Of a stretch of 64,000 bases of DNA, positions 5,482 through 38,423 are shown one piece after another (the stretch's first letter is position 1; each line of letters starts with the position of its first letter). Below the pieces are notes generated by a model. It did no database searches. It was not told the DNA's origin and saw nothing but the letters and a program-made list of their open reading frames with translations. Made by a program: the position numbers and the translations under genes. Origin of the DNA: a virus; the IMG/VR virus record IMGVR_UViG_3300003877_000001, positions 186,001-250,000 of that record; one strand, 5' to 3'.

Positions 5482-5967
5482 ATGGGATATACACATTATT
5501 GGACTTCGAAAGTAGTAAGCGAAGATAAGTTTAAAAAGTTTGCAGCTACTTGTAAGAAATTATATAAAGCATTACCAGATACTAGCGAAACTGCTAGTGG
5601 TTGTTATTCAGATGATGAAATAGTAATTTGTGGTGGTAATGGGAAAGGAAAACCATTGTTCAGAAATGATGAAGTTTGGTTTAACGGAGATGATAAAAGA
5701 GGTCTTGAAGCTTTTTGTATCGAACTAGAGGATAAAGATTATAATTCTTGTAAAACAGAAAGAAAACCCTATGACTTACTAGTTGTAGCCTGCTTAATTG
5801 CAGCACATGAAATTTTAGGGTATGAAATTACAAGTGATGGAGATTTTGAAGATTGGAAACTAGCAATAAATTATTATCTTCGTACATTATATACTAAGAT
5901 GCCAAACGATGAAGCAATTAAATTAATTTTACCAGAATTCATATATAAAGAATATTGTAACCTTTAG
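5482..5967 (+). CDS. Conserved phage protein beginning MGYTHYW, 161 aa
   Basis: The N-terminal MGYTHYW signature followed by a helical body and CYSDDEIVICGGNGKGKPLF matches a family of phage and bacterial hypothetical proteins that I know only by this start motif; no activity is assigned. It is driven by the class B promoter 53 nt upstream. Its last codons contain the -35 box of the next class B promoter. Confidence 0.75.
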   Translation: MGYTHYWTSKVVSEDKFKKFAATCKKLYKALPDTSETASGCYSDDEIVICGGNGKGKPLFRNDEVWFNGDDKRGLEAFCIELEDKDYNSCKTERKPYDLLVVACLIAAHEILGYEITSDGDFEDWKLAINYYLRTLYTKMPNDEAIKLILPEFIYKEYCNL

Positions 5968-14250: not shown

Positions 14251-14270
14251 TGTTAGGTCAGGGTAATTTA

Positions 14271-14693
14271 GTTGTGATCACCTTACAAAATGTGATAATA
14301 ACCAACCTTGTGCTCACGGTGATGTTTTATTTGACTTGTTGTGATCACCTTACAAAATATGATAATAACCAACAGAGTAGGTTTTATTTTGATAAGCAAG
14401 TAAGTTGTGATCACCTTACAAAATATGATAATAACCAACATATTCCTATTGTTATTATTGTTGTGATCACCTTACAAAATGTAATAATAACCAACCTATC
14501 TTATATACCAACATCTCTTGCCGAGGTTGTGACCACCTTACAAAATATAATAATAACCAACTCCAAGAGCCAACATTCGCAACCACGTACTGTTGTGATC
14601 ACCTTACAAAATATGATAATAACCAACGAGGATGTAGAGTTGGATTATTACCGCTTAGTTGTGATCACCTTACAAAATATGATAATAACCAAC
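14271..14693 (+). CRISPR. CRISPR array, 7 repeats of 36 nt, 6 spacers
   Basis: Repeats start at 14271, 14338, 14404, 14460, 14526, 14592 and 14658, each exactly 36 nt. They begin GTTGTGATCACC, continue TTACAAAATATGATAATA and end ACCAAC. Four copies are identical. Copy 1 differs at position 22, copy 4 at 22 and 24, copy 5 at 8 and 24. Spacers are 31, 30, 20, 30, 30 and 30 nt and all differ. The repeat has GTTG/CAAC ends and a GTGATCAC palindrome. An ORF that runs through the array is an artefact of the repeats. No cas1/cas2 is seen. The array lies 226 bp from the 3' end of a Cas12/TnpB-like gene on the other strand. Confidence 0.95.
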
Positions 14694-36189: not shown

Positions 36190-36858
36190 TTATTTCTCTT
36201 TTAATAAATACTTATTTGAAATAATTTTGAAACTAAAAGAACCATCCATAGCACGATATACAACACCTTCTCTTAGTGTATCATACAGTTCTGATCTACC
36301 ATCAGCATCTTTTAATAAGAAGTCGAAATCATCAGACAATGATACGTTCACATCTAAAACAGGAACAGTTTCTAATTCTAATTCATTAATAATTTCAATG
36401 AATTCATTATAATTAAGTCTCTTATTTTTACCATCTTGTGCAGTAAAGAACCTAATAGTCTTTTCTTTAAGATTATAGATATTACCTTGAATAGATGTTC
36501 CAATTAATTCACCTTGAAGAACTAAATCCTTATCATGTTTAGCACACCATGCTCTCATTTTCTCTTCCAACTTCATATTTCTTGCTGTTGTAACAAATTT
36601 GTTTTCAGATTGAACAAGTTTATTTGTGGTTAATGTATCTGGAACTTCTATTAATAATTTCAATTCAAGATTGCGTGAAGACACACCATAATCCCAAGTA
36701 GAATCAACATTATCCTGTTTAACACAATGTAAGGTAATTGATGAATTATGAACCAAAATATTATTTGCAAAAAAACAATTAGTATCCTCTACTTCTATAT
36801 CATATAAAAGTGAATCATTTTCAATCTCTTCAATTTTACTTATTTTTAACCGTTTCAT
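36190..36858 (-). CDS. C-terminal half of RNA ligase with split-intein C part
   Basis: Residues 1-38 are an intein C-terminal segment: LYDIEVEDTNCFFANNILVHN matches intein blocks F and G, with the penultimate His37, terminal Asn38 and a +1 Ser39. The following 184 residues continue an RNA ligase nucleotidyltransferase fold: ligase motif III-like YGVSSRNLEL, motif IV LQGELIG and motif V-like REGVVYRAMDG with FSFKIISNKYL. The partner N half is encoded 89 nt upstream (36948-37727). Trans-splicing would join them into a ligase of about 344 aa. This is about the size I recall for the Deinococcus RNA ligase type (about 340 aa). Confidence 0.88.
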   Translation of the reverse strand: MKRLKISKIEEIENDSLLYDIEVEDTNCFFANNILVHNSSITLHCVKQDNVDSTWDYGVSSRNLELKLLIEVPDTLTTNKLVQSENKFVTTARNMKLEEKMRAWCAKHDKDLVLQGELIGTSIQGNIYNLKEKTIRFFTAQDGKNKRLNYNEFIEIINELELETVPVLDVNVSLSDDFDFLLKDADGRSELYDTLREGVVYRAMDGSFSFKIISNKYLLKEK

Positions 36859-36947
36859 TTAATTTTTCTTTAAATAATTTATATATTGATTTATTTTTAT
36901 TATATTTAATATGATATTGTGGTATAAACTCAAAAGTTGGAAAAAAA
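36859..36947 (-). other. Gap between the two ligase/intein ORFs
   Basis: 89 nt of AT-rich sequence with stop codons; no endonuclease domain and no clear promoter. The break lies where contiguous inteins would carry a homing endonuclease. Confidence 0.6.
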
Positions 36948-37727
36948 CTATTCTTTTAATATGAAATCTTTTGTTGTTAATTCATCAGTTCTTCTATAAC
37001 AATTTAATTCTGGAAGCCAAACCATATGATTTCCAGTTAATTTAATTATTGTTCCATCTGATAATGTAAGTTTAAACCATTTTTTCTTTCCTCTTTTTGT
37101 TATTGAATGATTCTTTATCTTTTTATAACAAATTTCGTTTTTTACAATGTTATATGATTTAACATTTAATTCTAATTTTTTTTCACAAATATCTTTAATA
37201 GTTACGTTACCAATATCAGTATTAATTATAGTCTCTTCATCTAAACAACCTTCAAGTTTTTCAGACCTATACACTAATTTTTCTTTCCATTCTGGTAATT
37301 TATCAACCAAATTTTGGATTCTTTCCTCGCCACTTTTAGTACAGAAAGTTGGAAATCTACTTTTAGCACTCATATCTTCAGGAACGGGCGGTTCATATTT
37401 ATACACACCAATAGCTTCTGTTAAATCAGTATCTAATAACAAATTTAAAGGTAACATAAGTCCCTGACTTACAGTCCCTCTCAACTTAATTGTACGGATT
37501 CTAAGGAATCCCCTATCAATATCTTTTTGATTCTTGAATAGGTGATTAGACCAATCTTTATGTGGTATCATTGAGTCTATTTCAAAATAAATTCCCCATT
37601 CCCCTTCTTGGAATTCATCCTTTTTAACGACACATTCCCATCCATCTACTGTCGCTTTTTCGATTTTATCAGCATTAGGAATTGGCGTTAATTTACTTAC
37701 TTTTCTTAATGTTACTAATTTTCTCAT
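36948..37727 (-). CDS. N-terminal half of RNA ligase with split-intein N part
   Basis: Residues 1-160 match the DRB0094-type RNA ligase: N-terminal OB-like domain (MRKLVTLRKVSKLTPIPNAD, then GEWGIYFEIDSMIP, RTIKLRGTVSQGLMLPL) and ligase motif I at EKLEG with the nucleotidyl-accepting Lys157. Cys161 starts an intein N segment of 99 aa: block A CLDEETIINT and block B TGNHMVWLP with His234. The ORF stops after DFILKE. The intein thus interrupts the active-site motif between KLEG and SS, so only the spliced product can be active. RNA ligases of this type seal nicked or broken RNA such as tRNA. Confidence 0.9.
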   Translation of the reverse strand: MRKLVTLRKVSKLTPIPNADKIEKATVDGWECVVKKDEFQEGEWGIYFEIDSMIPHKDWSNHLFKNQKDIDRGFLRIRTIKLRGTVSQGLMLPLNLLLDTDLTEAIGVYKYEPPVPEDMSAKSRFPTFCTKSGEERIQNLVDKLPEWKEKLVYRSEKLEGCLDEETIINTDIGNVTIKDICEKKLELNVKSYNIVKNEICYKKIKNHSITKRGKKKWFKLTLSDGTIIKLTGNHMVWLPELNCYRRTDELTTKDFILKE

Positions 37728-38007: not shown

Positions 38008-38139
38008 TTAATGTCCTTTATCTATTACATTTAGTATTGTTTCTTCACCTGACACTACATTAACAACATCTTTAACAACTGCTAAAGGCGTTAGTGCTGT
38101 TTTTATTGTTGCACCCACAATACTACTAAAAAATCCCAT
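38008..38139 (-). CDS. Small amphipathic phage protein, 43 aa
   Basis: MGFFSSIVGATIKTALTPLA then VVKDVVNVVSGEE. This pattern (MG-F-S---G---KTA--P-AVVKDV) recurs in small phage and prophage proteins of unknown role, which supports it as a gene. Likely membrane-associated. Confidence 0.65.
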   Translation of the reverse strand: MGFFSSIVGATIKTALTPLAVVKDVVNVVSGEETILNVIDKGH

Positions 38140-38183
38140 AATTTTATTTTTTTGTAAATATACTATTATTATATTAATAATAC

Positions 38184-38283
38184 AAGCAATGGCATTGACA
38201 ACCTAACAATTGGACTTTCACCGTGTTTTTCGGGGTTATTGGTTTGTTGTCGATACTATTAACCCTTTTTCTCGCCACTGCCT
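38184..38283 (-). ncRNA. Pseudoknotted structured RNA, about 100 nt
   Basis: A 9-bp closing stem joins 38275-38283 with 38184-38192. It works on the minus strand because two positions are G-U there and would be A-C on the plus strand. Inside, GACAAC (38197-38202) pairs with GTTGTC (38246-38251) and GGGTTA (38233-38238) with TAACCC (38260-38265). These interleave, giving a pseudoknot. CCG/CGG (38221-38233) adds a small hairpin. A direct repeat TTTTTTTGTAAATATACT flanks the element (about 38150 and 38322). It resembles a riboswitch or ribozyme in compactness, but I cannot name a class. Confidence 0.55.
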
Positions 38284-38423
38284 ATATTATTGTTTATGAT
38301 ATTGTTTATGATATTTTTATGTTTTTTTGTAAATATACTCAAATTATATTGGTAATGCTACGTAAATTTTAAAACTCAATTCTTTTTCTAACTTTTCGAG
38401 AGTTGATATGTACAACCACTACA

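Follow-up and report, generated by a model that had tools for sequence, protein, structure and literature searches.

A widespread, apparently undescribed family of phage pseudoknot RNAs found in two circular permutations

A structured RNA encoded on the minus strand at 38291-38176 of the window (the whole 64,000-nt stretch of viral DNA that was analysed, taken from a virus record of 325,854 bases) belongs to a widespread and apparently undescribed phage RNA family that is absent from Rfam 15. Its core, a pseudoknot with ~30 near-invariant positions shared across phages of unrelated hosts, is found in two circular permutations, opened either at helix P1 (type 1, with the P2 side closed by a loop) or at helix P5 (type 2, the form in the window, with P1 closed by a hairpin). 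We hold with moderate confidence that it is an autonomous small noncoding RNA of ~75-130 nt, carried as a phage accessory gene and trimmed to a stable trans-acting form.

All elements that the original prediction had named for this RNA are present on the minus strand, namely a 9-bp closing stem that includes two G-U pairs (GGCAGUGGC at 38282-38274 with GCCAUUGCU at 38193-38185), here found to lengthen to ~18-19 bp (38291-38273 with 38194-38176), and two interleaved helices, P3 and P2 (Table 1). A third helix, P4, was absent from that prediction. The minus strand folds better than 200/200 shuffles (z -3.95) and the plus strand of the same stretch folds more weakly; together with the compensatory changes in relatives, this score bears out the compact structured RNA. 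The record holds a single copy of it and has 49 tRNA matches outside the window, while tRNA calling across the window found none and no Rfam family matches the stretch of the RNA itself.

Table 1. Features of the structured RNA and its flanks, in window positions
Feature	Positions	Strand	Evidence
Structured RNA, type 2 permutation (opened at P5)	38176..38291	-	Fold z -3.95; homologues in many phages; compensatory changes
P5 (closing stem), 5' strand AATAATATAGGCAGTGGCG	38273..38291	-	Pairs with 38176-38194; both-side changes in 7/14 modelled pairs, ten close relatives of the window copy (alignment A2)
P5, 3' strand TGCCATTGCTTGTATTATT	38176..38194	-	Partner of 38273-38291
P3, 5' strand GGGUUA (pseudoknot)	38260..38265	-	Pairs with 38233-38238; compensatory variants
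P3, 3' strand UAACCC	38233..38238	-	Partner of 38260-38265
P2, strand GACAAC	38246..38251	-	Pairs with 38197-38202; double-sided changes in 6/6 pairs, 53 sequences
P2, strand GUUGUC	38197..38202	-	Partner of 38246-38251
P4, strand CAA	38239..38241	-	Pairs with 38207-38209; C-G/G-C and G-C/A-U switches
P4, strand UUG	38207..38209	-	Partner of 38239-38241
Conserved internal loop, strand AAAC	38242..38245	-	Near-invariant, 78 sequences
Conserved internal loop, strand UUAG	38203..38206	-	Near-invariant, 78 sequences
Block A GAAAAAGGGUUAAUAGUA, with invariant AANAA and AGUA	38254..38271	-	Sequence conservation
YGAAARAC block with the closed P1 loop (type 1 relatives are open at P1)	38210..38232	-	Sequence conservation
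12-nt tandem duplication in RNA leader, overlapping the outer end of P5	38288..38311	-	Seen in sequence
Promoter-like copy 1, AATATAAT-nnn-AGTATATTTACAAAAAAA, upstream of the RNA (putative promoter)	38322..38350	-	Two copies, 26/29 identical; TATAAT 38348-38343
Promoter-like copy 2, upstream of the 38008-38139 ORF (putative promoter)	38147..38175	-	As copy 1; TATAAT 38173-38168

The direct repeat reported on both sides of the RNA is likewise present, as an 18-nt TTTTTTTGTAAATATACT at 38147-38164 and 38322-38339, and so is the tandem (TATTGTTTATGA at 38288-38299 and 38300-38311). The 16-base core of the repeat has no other exact occurrence in the record; other repeated 18-mers are common in the AT-rich window, and for this reason the repeat by itself is weak evidence of anything. 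TATAAT lies 3 nt upstream of each copy, giving a repeated unit of 29 nt, and a duplicated promoter may be the simplest account of the flanking repeats. Of the mobile or separately promoted unit that the repeats had been thought to mark, the separate promotion is probable on the basis of the TATAAT, whereas the ends of a mobile element are not upheld. Other repeats in the window are an array of TGTGATCACCTTACAAAATATGATAATAACC at 14268-14678, with a spacing of roughly 55-130 nt, and a dispersed palindrome-like repeat around ACGTATAGGATATCCTAAAGGTTAC at 5956, 7805, 18564, 25100, 27005 and 47076, some copies of which are reversed. Two minus-strand ORFs, 36190-36858 and 36948-37727, together encode an RNA ligase, and where they divide it each has one half of an intein splicing domain (motif KLEG), an arrangement that looks like a naturally split intein.

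The search for the motif in other phages that the original prediction had proposed yielded many relatives. Distant BLAST matched 23 phage records, nearly all of them at intergenic positions, and on inspection these contained the same blocks in a different order; pattern scans of viral contigs yielded many further copies. A strict descriptor demanding P2, P3 and P4 recovers 94 distinct copies, of which 30 are type 1 and 64 type 2, and a relaxed one 113 (33 and 80, respectively), counts that are not independent because copies share ancestry and many of the phages are related, and that come from a sample biased by the search patterns. The carriers comprise T4-like, T5-like, Vequintavirinae, Alcyoneusvirus, SPO1-like, Cellulophaga and Rhizobium phages and many metagenomic phages. 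Named carriers are Pectobacterium PM2, Escherichia mogra and G2469 among the Straboviridae, along with RaK2, Hena1, VLCpiM5b, IME260, My1, Proteus phages, Vibrio Va1, Cellulophaga Nekkels_1 and phi19:3, Bacillus Eldridge and Rhizobium RHEph12, and one copy comes from an apparent bacterial chromosome (L094). Most pattern matches in genome collections were due to chance and had no core, with L094, L104 and L106 retained; a crAss-like match, cr128_1 (L093; E 4), which lies within a gene and is without the core, was dropped.

In circular order, the core reads P1, P4 (CUS), UUAG, P2, a loop or P5, GAANAA, P3, nnAGUA, P2', AAAC, P4' (SAG), P3', YGAAARAC and P1', with GAANAA, AGUA, UUAG/AAAC and YGAAARAC as its near-invariant single strands. 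The architecture shown by comparison of the copies has P2 and P4 as one helix broken by the UUAG/AAAC internal loop, P3 as the helix that makes the pseudoknot, and RNA ends drawn together by P1 in type 1 or by P5 in type 2. Compensatory changes, whose absence from homologues had been named in advance as refuting, are present for every helix tested. In alignment A1 (53 sequences; fixed-length pieces joined, with type 1 rotated into type 2 order), 97.5% of cells are paired, as opposed to 76.2% when shuffled and no more than 49% when slid. Both sides have changed in 171 cells, and covariation is 0.540, compared with 0.112 shuffled. The apparent invariance of P3 arose because the search pattern had fixed it, and once the pattern was freed compensatory variants were seen (AGCATT/AATGCT, GGCATT/AATGCC, AGTCTA/TAGACT, AGGTCA/TGACCT and GGGATT/AATCCC). 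In both types the outer stems are longer than those formed with shuffled partners (8.2 versus 5.8 bp and 8.3 versus 5.9 bp). All three P4 sequence types (GAG, CAG and CAA) are present in both permutations, which indicates that the permutation is either old or repeated, and the opening of the same core at two natural sites argues for a real, self-contained RNA. A pattern scan for a third permutation, opened within YG-AAAG, found none.

Type 1 copies are often found in tRNA clusters, whereas type 2 copies are usually intergenic: a same-strand tRNA lies within 400 nt of 22/38 type 1 but 11/87 type 2 copies (Fisher p 4e-7, a value inflated by relatedness). In Mosigviruses G2469 and mogra the RNA sits between tRNA-Met and tRNA-Arg, and it is missing from Mosigviruses JQD51 and Shf125875, whose flanks are otherwise nearly identical. 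In VLCpiM5b it fills the homing-endonuclease loop of the DNA polymerase group I intron, which is empty in V5 and, in both AV124 and phiTE, is occupied by an HNH endonuclease gene; across phages, the intron (L002 1862-2166) has a peripheral loop that is empty, or has an HNH or LAGLIDADG gene, or has the RNA. Two chimeric copies stand in for the anticodon arm of a tRNA-like gene, one on a phage contig (L077; Rfam tRNA 34.1 bits) and one on the minus strand of a bacterial MAG contig (L094 1012-1180), where the variable arm is replaced as well and the RNA's own terminator follows. The latter locus looks chromosomal, with an ORF start past the terminator that resembles TsaD on inspection and a weak NrnA-like match upstream, and no other copy was found among 286 genomes of its phylum. 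A reading of these two genes as tRNA introns or self-splicing elements was rejected, since inspection finds no anticodon arm left outside the RNA. L220, L248 and L262 were rejected as group I intron ends, Rfam disagreeing and the RNA overlapping the end of a small membrane-protein-like gene.

Rfam 15, queried with copies of both types and with the chimeras, all in their natural order, at the gathering cut-off as well as at permissive thresholds, gave no stand-alone family match for the RNA. Its matches at carrier loci are to tRNAs, one tmRNA and group I introns, the M5b intron match spanning the inserted RNA and L077 scoring only as a tRNA around it. One RNA-carrying phage contig also has a tmRNA gene (L244 2507-2945). 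A literature search of open-access papers on the sequence blocks and on phage pseudoknot RNAs found none, and a likeness between short blocks and parts of 23S rRNA or RNase P RNA was discounted because their order is wrong and the blocks are short.

The evidence for an autonomous RNA lies in the covariation, the near-invariant positions, the permutation, the proximity to tRNAs, the clean presence or absence in sister phages, the tRNA-like chimeras, the terminators, the placement of upstream stop codons, the unrelated downstream genes and the lack of a stand-alone Rfam match. Such an RNA would be transcribed with neighbouring tRNAs, as a 3' UTR, in an intron loop, inside the body of a tRNA or under a promoter of its own, as is probably the case for the window copy, and would then be trimmed to a stable form; the chimeras and the copies in tRNA clusters suggest that tRNA processing makes its ends. 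Acting in trans, it may show its conserved unpaired bases to a partner common to very different hosts, for which the ribosome, RNA polymerase, a processing nuclease or a small ligand are candidates. That phages of Bacteroidota, Pseudomonadota and Bacillota hosts share these conserved bases suggests either a universal partner or intrinsic chemistry. In Eldridge and the Cellulophaga phages a terminator follows the RNA immediately, but against a trans-acting RNA, predicted intrinsic terminators follow just 6/85 type 2 copies (1.7% expected per control stretch) and 0/38 type 1 copies, and high core conservation and permutation are equally expected of a self-cleaving ribozyme, which is ranked second.

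That ribozyme, a new class of small self-cleaving RNA that would process phage tRNA and mRNA transcripts, among others, in a role comparable to that of theta ribozymes, we consider unlikely. It would fit the compact pseudoknotted core with its many invariant unpaired bases, the varied contexts, the natural circular permutation, as in known ribozymes (PMC10085705), and the many copies a few nt from tRNAs, as with theta ribozymes (PMC10879173). However, unlike theta ribozymes, the RNA has no conserved flanking site or fixed tRNA-end spacing: a theta-type cleavage-site position within 5 nt of the tRNA 3' end was not found, the spacing to the closest tRNA is variable, and for most type 2 copies there is no tRNA in the vicinity. 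HDV-family covariance models (cmscan, E up to 5) match none of the window, RaK2, L094, L077 and L008 copies. Moreover, the RNA ends are closed by long helices, and the two tRNA-like bodies keep both acceptor and T arm halves around the RNA, which cleavage would waste.

Compact pseudoknots are good exonuclease roadblocks, and many type 2 copies contain the stop codon of the upstream gene or start within ~30 nt of it, as would suit a cis-acting stability element, a knot that blocks 3'-to-5' exonucleases or otherwise protects upstream transcripts. This is nonetheless improbable, as the window copy has its own promoter-like sequence, other copies lie between tRNAs, in the intron loop or inside tRNA-like bodies, and the invariant unpaired bases go beyond the needs of a mechanical block. 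The riboswitch proposed for the 38008 gene, or any other 5'-UTR regulator of the next gene, is very improbable and does not withstand comparison with relatives, which lie in tRNA clusters, 3' UTRs, an intron loop and tRNA-like genes. Some type 2 copies do end 12-35 nt ahead of a start codon, but many copies are in tRNA clusters or have a terminator after them, the second promoter-like copy lies between the window RNA and the 38008 gene, and those downstream genes that can be identified are of unrelated kinds (UvsX-like recombinase, SSB, exonuclease, DNA ligase and membrane protein), with no conserved functional class among them. Just as improbable is a circular functional form, whose gene might be opened at either of two loops: the two permutations of one core and the nearby RNA ligase gene (36190-37727) speak for it, but DNA-level duplication and loss account equally well for the permutation, and a PF09414 RNA ligase is encoded in just 6/22 carrier records searched, which rules out a general co-occurrence.

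Few structured RNA families are conserved across phages whose hosts are unrelated, and few RNAs are known to occur in natural circular permutations. A core conserved to such a degree points to catalysis or a universal partner, and either one, if true, would be a general phage strategy. Tentatively, the family may represent a new functional RNA core in two permutations, spread between unrelated phages, as a new ribozyme class or as an RNA analogue to the protein inhibitors or sponges of phages, directed at a universal host target. This is directly testable in isolated carriers with E. coli, Klebsiella, Cellulophaga and Bacillus hosts, and in near-identical pairs with and without the RNA.

Among known systems, theta ribozymes, which are HDV-like, phage-encoded and tRNA-associated (PMC10879173), resemble the pseudoknot RNA in being small, pseudoknotted, phage-borne and often beside tRNAs, but have other conserved bases, whereas the pseudoknot RNA has no fixed tRNA 3'-end position and its cleavage is only putative. 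RNAs C and D of phage T4 (rnaC and rnaD) are likewise small stable RNAs without known function in a phage tRNA cluster; by inspection they contain none of the conserved blocks (L089), and similarity was not found. As in tmRNA and other tRNA-scaffold RNAs, a tRNA-like domain in L077 and L094 carries a pseudoknotted domain replacing the anticodon arm, although most members of the family are without a tRNA-like part. Finally, circularly permuted hammerhead ribozymes, whose core is unrelated and whose catalysis has only a putative counterpart here, offer a parallel in which one conserved core is opened at different helices in nature.
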